DNA from: an uncultured Synergistales bacterium
Lineage (GTDB): Bacteria > Synergistota > Synergistia > Synergistales > Aminobacteriaceae
Assembly: GCA_905235735.1 (NCBI GenBank)
Contig: CAJOMU010000001.1
Span: 1-64,000, forward strand
Reading direction: 5' to 3'
Length of the DNA stretch: 64,000 nt
The notes under the pieces were generated by a model. That model saw only the letters and a list, made by a program, of their open reading frames with translations. It made no database searches and had not been told where the DNA came from. Numbering within the stretch: the first letter of the stretch is position 1; each line of letters starts with the position of its first letter. This document shows positions 21,613 to 26,828 of this stretch, piece after piece. Both the position numbers and the translations under genes were made by a program.

Positions 21613-22518
21613 ATGAACAGGTTCAGCGAATATTACGACAGATTAAGACGATACGCAGAGGATACGATAAAGTCATTTCTTCCAGAGAGCAAAGGATTTC
21701 AGAAGACATTAATTGAAGCGATGAACTACAGCATGTTATCAGGAGGAAAAAGACTTCGCCCAATCCTGATGTATGAATCGTGGCATTTATTCGGCGGAAC
21801 AGACGAAAGATTAATTGCCCCGTTTATTGCGGCAATCGAGATGATACACACGTATTCTCTTGTGCATGATGATCTGCCTGCAATGGATAACGATATGTAC
21901 AGACGAGGCCGCAAGACTACACATGTGATTTACGGTGCAGGAATGGCAACGCTTGCAGGGGACGGATTGTTGAATCTTGCATTTGAGACGGCATTGAAGG
22001 CATCAGGACATGGCCATGATGACAGAGTGATTGAGGCACTGAGAGTACTTGCGCACAAGGCCGGAATTTACGGTATGGCAGGAGGTCAGTGCGTTGACAT
22101 TGAGATAGAGAACACAGAAGATGTTACAGACGAAGAGATAGATTTCGTGAATGAGCATAAGACAGCATGCATGATAGAAAGCAGCTTAATGGTCGGAGGA
22201 ATATTAGCCGGAGCAGATTCGGGATATATCAGCAGACTTGAGGAAGCCGGAAGCTGTTTAGGCAAAGCATTTCAGATTCGCGATGACATTCTGAACGTAA
22301 CGGGAACAGAGAAGGAACTGGGAAAATCAATCGGGAGTGATTCGGACGAAGGCAAAAGGAATTACGTATCACTTCACGGACTTGAAGATGCGCAGAAGAA
22401 AGTAACGGAATTAACATCACATGCAGTGTCAGTATTCGATGAGCTGTACAGATTCAGAGGGATTGAATATGCGTTTTTGAGCGAACTTGCCGAACGGATG
22501 ACTAGGCGCAGAAAATGA
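21613..22518 (+). CDS. ispA: Polyprenyl (farnesyl/geranylgeranyl) diphosphate synthase
   Basis: This 301-residue trans-isoprenyl diphosphate synthase condenses isopentenyl diphosphate with allylic diphosphates. The first Asp-rich motif is DDLPAMDND with the downstream RRGRKTTH (residues about 85-103), the second is QIRDDILNVTG near 220, and GGKRLRP lies at 40-46. The size and the DDxxxxD spacing fit bacterial IspA-type FPP/GGPP synthases. Product length cannot be set with confidence. It could feed undecaprenyl phosphate for the glycan pathways. Confidence 0.9.
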   Translation: MNRFSEYYDRLRRYAEDTIKSFLPESKGFQKTLIEAMNYSMLSGGKRLRPILMYESWHLFGGTDERLIAPFIAAIEMIHTYSLVHDDLPAMDNDMYRRGRKTTHVIYGAGMATLAGDGLLNLAFETALKASGHGHDDRVIEALRVLAHKAGIYGMAGGQCVDIEIENTEDVTDEEIDFVNEHKTACMIESSLMVGGILAGADSGYISRLEEAGSCLGKAFQIRDDILNVTGTEKELGKSIGSDSDEGKRNYVSLHGLEDAQKKVTELTSHAVSVFDELYRFRGIEYAFLSELAERMTRRRK

Positions 22519-22522
22519 CACG

Positions 22523-22563
22523 AAAAAACGGCGGACACAAAAATGACCTCTCATTATCCGCCG
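22523..22563 (-). terminator. Terminator of the RiPP operon (also faces the polyprenyl synthase)
   Basis: CGGCGGA (22529-22535) pairs perfectly with TCCGCCG (22557-22563). Read on the minus strand the stem is followed by TTTTTTCG, a good intrinsic terminator for the precursor genes. On the plus strand only a weaker T-run follows. Confidence 0.7.
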
Positions 22564-22625
22564 CATGCTTATTTTTACATCAGACTATTTGAACAAACCG
22601 CCTGTTACTTCCCTTACAGTATCCT

Positions 22626-22883
22626 TTATATCATTAAAGCCTCATCAGAACCCAGAGTACTACAGGATATAGGTATCCCCCAAAGCTCATCTGCGCCTCC
22701 AGCAACCATGTCGAGCTGCTCATCTGAGAGTTCAATCATCCCACCTTCTGCCAGCTTCAGAAATTCTTCGGGGGTTTTGCACTTTCTTGCTAATTCCTTC
22801 TGTTCATCGGTCATATTGTCAATGAATTTCCTGATTTCCTCTTTCATGGTTTCTTCATTGATTTCATGATGTTCTGCACTCAT
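22626..22883 (-). CDS. Nif11-like RiPP precursor peptide 1
   Basis: This 85-residue precursor has a 63-residue Nif11-type leader (MSAEHHEINEETM at the start, LARKCKTPEEFLKLAEGG in the middle, and LSDEQLDMVAGG at the end with the double-Gly cleavage motif). The predicted 22-residue core starts ADELWGIPIS and contains one Cys, one Trp, several Ser/Thr and an acidic stretch. GAAAGGAAG precedes the ATG. It is the distal gene of a minus-strand operon with a radical SAM/SPASM maturase. Leader family, double Gly and maturase neighbour make precursor identity strong. The modification is unknown. Confidence 0.88.
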   Translation of the reverse strand: MSAEHHEINEETMKEEIRKFIDNMTDEQKELARKCKTPEEFLKLAEGGMIELSDEQLDMVAGGADELWGIPISCSTLGSDEALMI

Positions 22884-23284
22884 GATTGTAGCTTCCTTTC
22901 ATTAATTTCATCTGATGATGATGTTCATGGTTTTGTATTATAATGCGATGCACTCACATCTGTTTTATACAATCTCCTCCCACAATGACTGAAGAGCCAA
23001 ACCCAAACCATGACTTTGAGGAGCGCGACTAACACTTCCGCCAACAACCATGTCGAGCTGCTCATCTGATAGTTCAATCATCCCACCTTCTGCCTGCTTC
23101 AGAAAATCTTCGGGGGTTTTGCACTTTCTTGCTAATTCCTTCTGTTCTTCGGTCATGTTGTCGATGAATTTCCTGATTTCCTCATTCATGGTTTCTTCAT
23201 TGATTTCATGATGTTCTGCACTCATGTTTGTACCTTACTTTCATTAATTTCATCTGATGATGATGTTCATGGTTTTGTATTATA
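22703..23284. repeat. Direct duplication of leader-coding and upstream DNA
   Basis: Positions 22703-22942 and 23045-23284 align over 240 bp without gaps. The copies cover the Nif11 leader codons, ribosome site and -10 region. The match stops at the double-Gly codons, so the core-coding segments are unrelated. This is a recent duplication with fast core change. Confidence 0.85.
22965..23225 (-). CDS. Nif11-like RiPP precursor peptide 2
   Basis: This 86-residue paralogue of precursor 1 has a 63-residue leader that differs at only five positions and ends LDMVVGG. The 23-residue core starts SVSRAPQSHG and ends LQSLWEEIV. It shares almost nothing with core 1 except a single Trp in a Leu-Trp context, and it has no Cys, so a Cys thioether cannot be the only product type. 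AAGG lies before the ATG, and a TAGACA-17-TATAAT promoter lies 54 bp upstream, beyond the maturase stop. A product carrying a strand-specific modification is likely but undefined. Confidence 0.88.
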   Translation of the reverse strand: MSAEHHEINEETMNEEIRKFIDNMTEEQKELARKCKTPEDFLKQAEGGMIELSDEQLDMVVGGSVSRAPQSHGLGLALQSLWEEIV

Positions 23285-23307
23285 AATCGTAAATTCAATT
23301 CTGTCTA
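23279..23307 (-). promoter_or_regulatory. Promoter of the RiPP precursor genes
   Basis: On the minus strand TAGACA (23307-23302) and TATAAT (23284-23279) are spaced by exactly 17 nt. The promoter overlaps the end of the maturase gene and would let precursors be made in excess of the enzymes. The duplicated copy before precursor 1 keeps TATAAT (22942-22937) but has lost a recognisable -35. Confidence 0.65.
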
Positions 23308-24656
23308 TCCGTATCATTACATGCGGCTTTATTCTTTTTCGCGTTCTCATAGAGTGCAAGCGCATATTTTTCAGGAGTATTCTTGTATGCAACACATTTA
23401 CGGTGTCCGTAACGAACTTTTTGAACTGGACAGCCTCCAGCACAGACGGGGAAAAAGATACACTTCAGGCATTCTTCATCTTCAGACGGAACGGATGCAT
23501 TGATGTAGCTGATTAAATTATCAGGAATATCAGCAGTGAAAACCGGATTTACCGGATCCCATTCGGACACTCTTCCGAAACTGTATTCAGGATTGCCGAC
23601 ATCTTCCCAGCATTTATAGAGCATTCCCTGTTCATCAATTCCGACAAATGAAAATACATTTGCGCCGCAGAAATTCAGTTTTATATTGAAGTTGTCAATT
23701 GCTCTTGCCATTCCAATTTCGACATTCTCATCATCATACGCGCATAACAGACTGAGATTTGAGCCATTCTCAGAGGAAACAGAGTTATTCGACACAGGAG
23801 CAGGATAATATTTCAGCTGATTTCCGCTTTCCTCCGCTAATTTTTCGATTAAAGCTCTTAGTGCAGGAATTTGATCTACATTTCCCTTGTGGACATTGTG
23901 CCGTATGCCTACTTTGAAGGGAATTCTGAGCGTTCTGAGATTTTCGGTTATGCGTTCAAATGTTGAGCCGCCTCCCACTAAATGCCTTGTTTGGTCATGA
24001 GCTTCACCGATTCCGTCAAGCGTTATCTGAGAAAATTTCACATCACATTGAGCGAGAGTATCAACGATTTCCTGAGTGAGCAGATACCCGTTTGTTACAA
24101 TTGATGCCGAATATTTTGCATTTTTCTTTTCTGCAATTGCCCTGAGTTTTTCAGTGAGTGCCGTAATAACATTCATTCCGATTAATGGTTCACCGCCGAA
24201 CCATGTTACATGGAGAGCTTTCGCTGAAGAAGCATCAATCATTTTCTCGGCAAGTGCAGCAATATCAGCCTGAACCTGTTCGGTCATAATTCCTGCTCTG
24301 TGTCTCTCAAAACAGTAAGGACATGCAAAATTACAGTTCATTGTCGGGCATATAGTGAGTGAAACATTATTGTCGCCTCTGCTGGCGAGTCTTCCCATAG
24401 CCTTCATTGCTTCGAGTTCATCATAATTTGCGATGAAACCGCTCTTTGCGAAACGTTCAAGAATGGGATGATTTTCGGGGAGTGTTTCAGCCTCATTAAG
24501 CAGGCAGAGTTCAACAAAGCTGTATGCCTCACATATTCCGCGAAAGAGATTGAGCACTACAAATTTTTGTGAATCAGGAATGCGTGCATATATATTATAT
24601 TTTGAGATGTGCCAGCCAGCTTGACCGGCCGTTCGGACATTTTTATTTTCGGACAT
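23295..24656 (-). CDS. Radical SAM/SPASM peptide maturase
   Basis: This 453-residue enzyme is probably the core modifier of the adjacent Nif11 peptides. The radical SAM cluster motif is CNFACPYCFE (Cys108, Cys112, Cys115), with WFGGEPLIG near 152-160. The C-terminal SPASM part has Cys330, Cys349, Cys396, Cys399, Cys405, Cys409 and Cys421, enough for two auxiliary Fe-S clusters. The first 100 residues are a region commonly seen in peptide maturases. It lies between two paralogous unknown genes upstream and two precursors downstream. Known SPASM maturases make Cys-to-carbon, Lys-Trp, Tyr decarboxylation and other bonds. Which one applies here is open. Confidence 0.9.
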   Translation of the reverse strand: MSENKNVRTAGQAGWHISKYNIYARIPDSQKFVVLNLFRGICEAYSFVELCLLNEAETLPENHPILERFAKSGFIANYDELEAMKAMGRLASRGDNNVSLTICPTMNCNFACPYCFERHRAGIMTEQVQADIAALAEKMIDASSAKALHVTWFGGEPLIGMNVITALTEKLRAIAEKKNAKYSASIVTNGYLLTQEIVDTLAQCDVKFSQITLDGIGEAHDQTRHLVGGGSTFERITENLRTLRIPFKVGIRHNVHKGNVDQIPALRALIEKLAEESGNQLKYYPAPVSNNSVSSENGSNLSLLCAYDDENVEIGMARAIDNFNIKLNFCGANVFSFVGIDEQGMLYKCWEDVGNPEYSFGRVSEWDPVNPVFTADIPDNLISYINASVPSEDEECLKCIFFPVCAGGCPVQKVRYGHRKCVAYKNTPEKYALALYENAKKNKAACNDTDRQN

Positions 24657-24668
24657 TAATTTTCTCCT

Positions 24669-25640
24669 TTATCCAAAATTTTTAACGGTGAACATGCAGT
24701 ATAATTTTGATTTTACAGGAACTCCGCGAACCCACACTGTTTTAATGAACGCAGGAGTACAGAGCATACCTGCAAAGCCTGAATCAGTTTTCATGAGAGA
24801 AGAGAATGATGATTTACTGAGGTATTTGATGCGTTCACCTGATACGGACATTTCTGAAAGTTTCGAGATTATTGCGTTACCCTGTTCACCTGCGAAAAAA
24901 TTTCGGAAGTCAGCAGGTTTTTTTATTGCAAAACCAATGCTTAGTCCGACAGATTCACTCATTGTTCCGTCATCGTTCCTGTCTAACTGAATTTCAAGAT
25001 TGCATTTAGAATTCAGTTTTGAGAACCACGATACAAATTTTTCGATTCTTTCCGTGTCAAAAGAATAGCCGATGTTCTTTAGCTGACGCGGAAACAAATC
25101 AGGTTCTATATTGCGTATGTAACAGTCAACTCTGCACATTCTCTTACTGCGTCCTGAAATTGCAGCTATGTACCATGTGTGCCAGTCTTTTGGGATACGA
25201 TTCATAGTTTCGCGATATAGACTAACGGCTTCAGGATAACCAGAGACCCCGAAAAATTTTTCTGCGTCATTCATGAAGCCTGAATTTACGTTTAAAGCTG
25301 AACCTGCACATGTCATGCTTTCTTTGTTATCGGCCATGTCGAACGCAAGGGCTATACCGTTTCTTTCGTCTCCAGATTCTGAGAACCATTTAAACAATGG
25401 TCTGTAACCGTAATAATCGAGGTCAGCAATCTCATCTTTGCTGAACTGAACATGAAGGTCAGTTTTTGATTCGTCTTTTGATTCGTTCAATGGAATTTCA
25501 AGCCAGAAGCCGGGAAATAATGAACCCGAACACACGCTTGAAAAAGTTCGTCCGACAGTTTCATTATATTCCGGGAAAATTTCAGGGCATCTTGCATGTG
25601 CGAAATTGCATACAAGCTCAAACAAGTTCTTACTGTTCAT
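24669..25640 (-). CDS. Unrecognised RiPP-operon protein B (paralogue of A)
   Basis: This 323-residue cytosolic protein has no signal or membrane segment. I do not recognise the family. It is clearly a distant paralogue of the upstream gene. Shared blocks are FPGFWLEIPL with YPSFYVEFPL, FKWFSES with YDWFSNL, RETMNRIPKDW with MELLKRMPEGM, and DGTMSESVGLSIGF with DGTLGDVFGLSFSF. Alternating hydrophobic beta-strand patterns dominate the C-terminal half. It overlaps gene A (ATGA) and ends 12 bp before the maturase start, so it belongs to the RiPP pathway. A second tailoring enzyme or a recognition protein is possible. Confidence 0.75.
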   Translation of the reverse strand: MNSKNLFELVCNFAHARCPEIFPEYNETVGRTFSSVCSGSLFPGFWLEIPLNESKDESKTDLHVQFSKDEIADLDYYGYRPLFKWFSESGDERNGIALAFDMADNKESMTCAGSALNVNSGFMNDAEKFFGVSGYPEAVSLYRETMNRIPKDWHTWYIAAISGRSKRMCRVDCYIRNIEPDLFPRQLKNIGYSFDTERIEKFVSWFSKLNSKCNLEIQLDRNDDGTMSESVGLSIGFAIKKPADFRNFFAGEQGNAIISKLSEMSVSGERIKYLSKSSFSSLMKTDSGFAGMLCTPAFIKTVWVRGVPVKSKLYCMFTVKNFG

Positions 25641-26647
25641 AATAAATCTGCCTGCATTAAGAGATAGAATTTTGCAGATACAGCCTTTCCTGCATTAAAT
25701 TTGATTTTTGCGTAATTGAAACGAATAACCATAGCAAACATACCAAAACTCCCGTCAGAACGTTCAAACGGTATTCCCTTTCCGCATGCTGCACCTGCAA
25801 TCATCTTCCAGCGGTCATCAGCTAATCCGCGATGTTCAAGCAGCGTCATAAATTCTGCGCCTAAACCTGACCTCATGCATTCCTCAGCCTGACGCGGAAG
25901 AAAATCGTTAAATGAAAATGACAGTCCGAACACATCACCTAAAGTTCCGTCTTGGTAAATGTCAAACTGAAAATCGATTCCGGGAGCACAAGCAAAAATT
26001 TCACGGCAATATTCGAGCATTGATTCATCGTATGCCTTGAAGCCTGCCGAATCAAAACATTCACCCAGTAATGCAGGACGTTCTGCAATCTCACGAAGCA
26101 ATCCCTTATTCATGTATCCCCCGATACGCATCGGAGAACCTTCACGTCCCGGAAAAAGTCCGATATAAGCAGGAGGCATTCCCTCAGGCATACGCTTCAA
26201 CAGTTCCATGTACGATGATAAACGTTTCTCTTCTCCGACTGACTTCAGGAACGGCGCAATGAGTTCTGTATTTTTGCGATACTGAAAATAAACTCCGGCA
26301 TGTTCAGTTTCTCCGCTCCCTGTATCCATTTCGATTGCACAGCCTGTTCCGTGTCCTTCAGGAAGATTTGAGAACCAGTCATACATAGACTGATAACCAA
26401 ATCCGCAGCCCGATGCGAACTGCACATTGGGAGTAAGTCTGCCGTGAATCGTAAGGACATCAAAGCATGGAGTTCCGAGAAGTGGAAACTCAACGTAAAA
26501 TGAAGGATAACTATCGCCGATTAAGCATTTTTCGACAACAGGACGAACCAAAGCAATGCTGTTGCCGAACAATGCCGCTTCACGTCCATCTCGTGAACAT
26601 AGATTGTAGAGAATATCAAAAGCCTCTATCGGTGTTGGTCTGTTCAT
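25637..26647 (-). CDS. Unrecognised RiPP-operon protein A (paralogue of B)
   Basis: This 336-residue soluble protein is the first gene of the minus-strand RiPP operon, coupled to gene B by ATGA overlap. No known catalytic motif was identified. Conserved with B are an N-terminal aromatic-rich strand block, a WFS helix, GLFPGREGSPMRIGGYM (matching AAISGRSKRMCRVDCYI) and the C-terminal FNYAKIKFNAGKAVSAKFY strand pair. The repeated strand-strand-helix layout could suit a barrel such as the ABBA fold of peptide prenyltransferases. That is conjecture from pattern only. The ATG at 26647 has AGGGT upstream. Confidence 0.72.
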   Translation of the reverse strand: MNRPTPIEAFDILYNLCSRDGREAALFGNSIALVRPVVEKCLIGDSYPSFYVEFPLLGTPCFDVLTIHGRLTPNVQFASGCGFGYQSMYDWFSNLPEGHGTGCAIEMDTGSGETEHAGVYFQYRKNTELIAPFLKSVGEEKRLSSYMELLKRMPEGMPPAYIGLFPGREGSPMRIGGYMNKGLLREIAERPALLGECFDSAGFKAYDESMLEYCREIFACAPGIDFQFDIYQDGTLGDVFGLSFSFNDFLPRQAEECMRSGLGAEFMTLLEHRGLADDRWKMIAGAACGKGIPFERSDGSFGMFAMVIRFNYAKIKFNAGKAVSAKFYLLMQADLL

Positions 26648-26790
26648 GATATTTTTACCCTGTACATGCTGGCTGCCTTAGTCGCCGACCCAAGTACAAC
26701 AATTGGATTAATACCTCCCGAATGAATTTTATGTATGTGTTTCGTAGCTCACATATGCTAACATACTTTCTTTATGAAAACAACAAGCAC

Positions 26791-26822
26791 AAAAAAATTC
26801 CCCCTGCCGTTAAAGCAAGGGG
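26791..26822 (-). terminator. Terminator of rlmB
   Basis: On the minus strand CCCCTTG pairs with CAGGGGG, followed by AATTTTTTTG, 7 bp after the rlmB stop. Stem and tail match the gltX terminator almost base for base. Confidence 0.75.
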
Positions 26823-26828
26823 ATCATT

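Follow-up and report, generated by a model that had tools for sequence, protein, structure and literature searches.

The 64,000-nucleotide stretch analyzed here (hereafter the window; positions 1 to 64,000 of contig CAJOMU010000001.1) comes from a gut bacterium of the Synergistales, phylum Synergistota, whose genome (G000) spans 2.1 Mb in 41 contigs. The window carries a genuine, recurring operon for a ribosomally synthesized and post-translationally modified peptide (RiPP), in which two leader-bearing precursor genes stand beside a radical S-adenosylmethionine (SAM)/SPASM maturase and two proteins termed A and B. With a probability of about two in three, the product of this operon is both radical-SAM-modified and prenylated, with A and B as the prenylating enzymes and tryptophan as the most likely acceptor.

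The operon consists of five open reading frames, all on the minus strand, which in 5' to 3' order encode protein B (336 amino acids, 25637..26647), its paralogue protein A (323 amino acids, 24669..25640), the radical SAM/SPASM peptide maturase (453 amino acids, 23295..24656), precursor peptide 2 (22965..23225) and precursor peptide 1 (22626..22883), with the start codon of A overlapping the stop codon of B as ATGA. These coordinates and strands are the same as those given in an earlier description made from the letters alone (the sequence-only reading). The maturase combines a PF04055 domain (63.5 bits), a SPASM domain (TIGR04085, 51.4 bits against a cut-off of 27) and a CNFACPYC motif, so that the former description of the locus as a RiPP operon with a single radical SAM/SPASM enzyme beside leader-peptide genes stands above the curated cut-off.

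Proteins A and B share 21–22% identity, and a search with A retrieves B at E = 8.5e-9; the two were thus rightly called paralogues, and the accompanying label "unknown" is revised here, as both are probably members of an unnamed family of ABBA-fold prenyltransferases according to their structure models. The AlphaFold model of B, built like that of A on a four-sequence alignment, reached a predicted local distance difference test score (pLDDT) of 72.6 and a predicted template modeling score (pTM) of 0.72, and displays five beta-hairpins with helices between them; the model of A has the same topology at low confidence (pLDDT 55.9, pTM 0.57). When the models were compared with PDB structures using Foldseek, ABBA/DMATS prenyltransferases made up all of the best 50 matches listed for B (E 3.3e-6 to 4.3e-3) and ABBA prenyltransferases 49 of the best 50 listed for A (best E 4.6e-5), including PagF and PirF, and the top matches of both proteins were mostly Trp-acting ABBA/DMATS aromatic prenyltransferases. 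At the level of models, the predicted topology and the Foldseek matches support an ABBA barrel, with ten antiparallel strands in alpha-beta-beta-alpha arrangement, for both A and B.

A tblastn search of plasmids with B exposed one relative, on the rumen plasmid pNP243 of Butyrivibrio fibrisolvens (E 9e-14, 97% coverage), which is 24% identical to B in a five-sequence alignment. The residues invariant in A, B and this homologue include (in B numbering) E53 in the predicted first strand, R174, R279, K281, K314 and Y328, of which E53 presumably falls where DMATS enzymes carry their catalytic glutamate. The genes 3' of the homologue encode two ATP-binding cassette (ABC) transporter ATP-binding proteins, a kinase-like protein, which we take to be of the kind found in lasso clusters, a Tyr- and Cys-rich peptide of 57 residues with a Trp at its end, a PqqD protein and an S24/S26 peptidase, indicating that the A/B family also occurs in an unrelated RiPP setting. 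No radical SAM gene was found among the listed neighbors of the homologue, and the family is therefore not tied to the maturase of the window. Homologues of A and B lying mostly away from RiPP genes had been named as evidence that would speak against the sequence-only reading, and the single distant homologue found favors it, with the cross-phylum context resting on this one sequence. The same plasmid also carries, about 7–10 kb upstream of the homologue (L114:1806-6641), genes for lasso-type B2, kinase-like and Asn-synthetase proteins, with a 49-residue peptide encoded on the opposite strand.

The two precursors follow a pattern of fixed leaders and variable cores. Each has a 63-residue leader ending in double Gly and containing an LX4L element (LSDEQL in precursor 2), followed by the core ADELWGIPISCSTLGSDEALMI in precursor 1 and SVSRAPQSHGLGLALQSLWEEIV in precursor 2. 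Over their 63 codons the two leaders agree at 94.7% of DNA positions. When the downstream precursor of a second genome, described below, is included, the three leaders show 94–95% DNA identity, with the match stopping at the double-Gly codons and the cores having no meaningful similarity. Four cores are known in all, ADELWGIPISCSTLGSDEALMI, SVSRAPQSHGLGLALQSLWEEIV, AWNTVHECTYYDEIDNYH and DLRGNIWKDFCYYWNRPM. DNA alignment thus bears out the near-identical double-Gly leaders and almost wholly different cores noticed earlier. The DNA 5' of the precursor start, TATAAT box included, is likewise repeated before precursors 1 and 2, and the core of precursor 1 with its downstream DNA has no match beyond the window among 43 genomes of the genus.

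The label "Nif11-type" previously given to these leaders fails the curated cut-offs and a Nif11-like leader class was rejected for both precursors, since precursor 1 scored 13.0 bits against a cut-off of 32.3 with TIGR03798, precursor 2 gave no match to this family and neither leader matched PF07862. Matches to the CTB-family bacteriocin leader were also weak (26.6 bits for precursor 1 and 21.1 bits for precursor 2; cut-off 32). The genus has another RiPP family as well, observed at G000:C21 (L051:8709-9994) and G024:C107 (L058:4-1245), where arrays of four tandem precursors each display longer, Nif11-like leaders and short, mostly Cys-rich cores; the single precursor scanned reached 27.0 bits with TIGR03798, and the G000 array lies at a contig end.

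Only Trp and Ile recur in every one of the four cores, and of these two Trp alone offers a side chain with obvious prenyl-acceptor chemistry. The presence of Trp in all four cores has a chance probability of about 0.001 at a Trp frequency of 1.05%, in a test picked post hoc. The window's core 2 lacks Cys and the remaining three cores have one Cys each, in line with the earlier observation of one Cys in core 1, none in core 2 and a single Trp following Leu in each; the suggestion drawn from it, that a common modification would not use Cys, gains support from the Cys-free core 2, and Trp, present in all four cores, is the likely shared target. It is unlikely that A and B are prenyltransferases acting on a different residue (Tyr, Ser, Thr, His or a terminus), or that they form a heteromer in which one partner is inactive: the retention of two paralogues together suggests a division of labor, but no other side chain of comparable chemistry occurs in all four cores, and the shared charged and Tyr residues are retained in both A and B.

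A candidate source of the prenyl donor lies next to the operon, where a farnesyl-diphosphate (FPP) synthase gene on the plus strand (21613..22518; NF045485, 281.1 bits against a cut-off of 275) is convergent with precursor 1. No other PF00348 gene was found in the window genome; the family was found in 8 of the 43 genus genomes, and in all three operon-carrying genomes the gene adjoins the operon. Undecaprenyl synthesis normally requires FPP, and PF00348 was not found in the remaining 35 genus genomes, many of them near complete.

Several observations weigh against a prenylated product. Orthologues of the FPP synthase with 72–74% identity occur in unrelated contexts in three genomes that lack the operon (G021, G032 and G036), for which reason the gene was rejected as operon-specific, and the three operon-carrying genomes are close relatives. 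Searches of A and B against Pfam, NCBIfam, PHROGs and PDB sequences gave nothing beyond noise, with no prenyltransferase match in Pfam or NCBIfam at E values up to 10, PF11991 included, and only noise for an A/B profile against PDB sequences; no homologues were found in viral and phage collections. That PF11991 was found in none of 61 relatives carries no weight, as no control genome gave a match either. The TM-scores are about 0.5 for B and 0.4 for A with large root-mean-square deviations; at this level B has good support for the fold and A is likely to share it, with pocket details unreadable. Both models are based on four sequences only and, sharing this one set, are not independent of each other.

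The nearest equivalog models of the maturase are Clo7bot (211.7 bits against a cut-off of 600) and TIGR04463 (203.6 against 525), with CefB and PapB also among the nearest models, all far below their cut-offs and some of them thioether-forming. The thioether of ranthipeptides needs a core Cys, which core 2 lacks, so an obligatory thioether is unlikely; if both precursors are substrates, a bond not involving Cys or another radical change is more likely. The maturase scores could also be read as pointing to a radical SAM enzyme that modifies the core alone, yielding a ranthipeptide, a cyclophane or an epimerised peptide, with A and B serving, for example, as a peptide chaperone or in self-protection and with the ABBA call being a modeling artifact. 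The low to moderate confidence of the A and B models lends something to this distinctly improbable reading, but an artifact is not expected to yield one fold, as essentially the sole class of matches, for two sequences at 22% identity, and the listed neighbors of the Butyrivibrio homologue include no radical SAM gene. Another radical SAM protein of the window genome, about 36% identical to the maturase over part of its length, stands beside a double-Gly precursor at G000:C34 (L052:5687-7580), and similar loci exist in several members of the genus (L055, L056 and L057).

The operon recurs in a Synergistales metagenome-assembled genome (MAG) from reindeer (G012; CAJOLN010000032.1), the closest relative of the window genome to carry it, with 94% protein identity to the window, one precursor before B, one after the maturase, and new cores. 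The ratios of nonsynonymous to synonymous substitution rates (dN/dS) between the two genomes are 0.28 for B, 0.30 for A and 0.36 for the maturase, indicating that all three are under constraint, and such recurrence in another species shows that these are real genes. In the alignment of window positions 22251-26500 with the reindeer contig (L048), DNA identity is about 96% within the operon and about 90% outside it, and synonymous divergence is 0.08–0.11 for the operon and 0.37–0.41 for the flanking rlmB and ABC genes; judging by these sequence comparisons, the operon was probably swapped between the two lineages after their genomes split. A scar at 26651..26716 on the minus strand, before B, marks the site of a lost precursor, as the aligned reindeer segment (L048:8960-9460) contains there a precursor with the core DLRGNIWKDFCYYWNRPM. 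A third species (G035) has the operon in decay, with frameshifts in both B and the maturase, a deletion of A and no remaining precursor. The reading of the operon as a relic that yields no product in the window species finds some support in the decay in this third species and in the precursor site lost before B, yet it is very improbable, as all frames are intact in both G000 and G012 with the dN/dS values given above, and leaders are kept while cores are replaced.

A search of 188 genomes of the phylum gave no further convincing A/B gene; a weak match in G032 (E 0.001, in a frame of 70 amino acids) was rejected, as inspection gave no A/B-like gene or operon. A genome-wide pattern scan retrieved the reindeer MAG only, and since few patterns were used in it, the absence of the operon elsewhere is weak evidence.

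For the product favored here, radical-SAM-modified and prenylated, we infer the following working order. The shared leader, with its LSDEQL (LX4L) element, would probably be recognized by all modifying enzymes and so direct A, B and the maturase to their core substrate; the SPASM maturase would place a radical modification on the core, and A, B or both would attach an isoprenoid, most likely on the Trp indole, from a C10 or C15 diphosphate that may come from the adjoining FPP synthase. A stand-alone NHLM-like C39 exporter would then cleave after the double Gly and export the lipidated peptide. The single C39 peptidase ABC transporter found in the window genome lies on contig 25 (G000:C25, L118) with a second ABC subunit, and the nearest families of both are those of the NHLM type, at scores just under their cut-offs (845.9 against 853.3 bits for TIGR03796 and 679.6 against 709.4 for TIGR03797). 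One C39 gene is also present in each of the other two operon-carrying genomes, the G012 locus being laid out as in G000. This exporter probably supplies cleavage after the double Gly and export, consistent with the earlier expectation that leader removal is supplied elsewhere. A further-reaching version of the proposal is held tentatively, at somewhat below even odds: that the locus represents a new class of RiPP, whose hypervariable cores are modified both by a radical SAM/SPASM enzyme and by two leader-guided prenyltransferases from a new sequence family. The products would be radical-modified and Trp-farnesylated or -geranylated, with a matching FPP synthase alongside the operon, and species would exchange cores while promoter and leader stay fixed.

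Peptide prenyltransferases are known chiefly from cyanobacteria, in cyanobactins and a few lanthipeptides, and from Bacillus pheromones. The closest precedent for a leader-guided Trp prenylation by A and B, by analogy, would be MppC of the Moorena producens mpp cluster, which attaches a geranyl group to a single lanthipeptide Trp and depends on both a structured part of the leader and its LX4L motif (PMC12715784). Set beside A and B by description, MppC and its precursor MppE likewise combine an ABBA-fold prenyltransferase, a leader-bearing precursor with LX4L and a Trp acceptor; they differ in the cyanobacterial host, the long Nif11-like MppE leader, the single prenyltransferase and the ring formed by a LanM synthetase, whereas the window has a radical SAM enzyme and two prenyltransferases, and no Lan synthetase was seen on inspection of the five-gene operon and its neighborhood. 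The cyanobactin prenyltransferases PagF, PirF, KgpF and LimF also use peptide substrates, the predicted fold of A matches the PagF and PirF structures, and KgpF acts on Trp; however, they show no sequence family match to A and B, and they work on cyclic or linear cores after leader removal, in clusters with PatA/PatG-type proteases, none of which were seen on inspection of the operon or the window's list of open reading frames. The precursor cores extend to the C-terminus, unlike cyanobactin cores, which are flanked by two recognition sequences. The bacterial and fungal Trp prenyltransferases PriB, CymD, Streptomyces 5-DMATS, IptA and FgaPT2 (PF11991) are the best structural matches of A and B, but their substrates are free Trp or small molecules, and A and B give no match to PF11991. 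For the maturase, Clo7bot, TIGR04463, CefB and PapB share the radical SAM and SPASM architecture, but their substrates are Cys-rich or Cys-requiring, unlike the Cys-free core 2.

A literature search for peptide prenyltransferases together with radical SAM enzymes, with most subscription journals outside its scope, gave only reviews and the MppC paper, so that the pairing of a radical SAM maturase with peptide prenyltransferases appears undescribed there; a review from 2026 treats the ABBA enzymes of cyanobactins and NctPC and trans-isoprenyl diphosphate synthase (IDS)-like enzymes such as ComQ, with the word "radical" nowhere in its text (PMC13290415). If the proposal is correct, it would extend the ABBA enzymes, through a divergent branch, to anaerobic rumen bacteria from two phyla, would link them to radical SAM chemistry and would offer two compact enzymes that may lipidate peptide Trp under leader control; with variable cores after a fixed leader, substrate tolerance is directly testable with the four natural cores.

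Around the operon, a terminator-like hairpin on the minus strand after rlmB (26799..26823), with a 10-pair stem followed by a T run, sets the operon apart from this upstream gene. A promoter-like site, TAGACA-17-TATAAT, lies directly 5' of precursor 2 (23279..23307, minus strand) with 11 of 12 consensus positions matching, a consensus match being no proof of function. The window had been described as free of transporter, protease and dehydratase genes, which holds for peptide exporters, C39 peptidases and dehydratases, none of which was seen in it, and fails for transporters in general, as the window does contain an ABC importer and, probably, an ABC ATPase of the polysaccharide type. Elsewhere, at G031:C1 (L131:5832-8202), a divergent polyprenyl-synthase-like gene overlaps PqqD-like and nucleotidyltransferase-like genes; no precursor was identified at this locus, which is possibly the setting of a ComQ-type (trans-IDS-like) peptide prenyltransferase.
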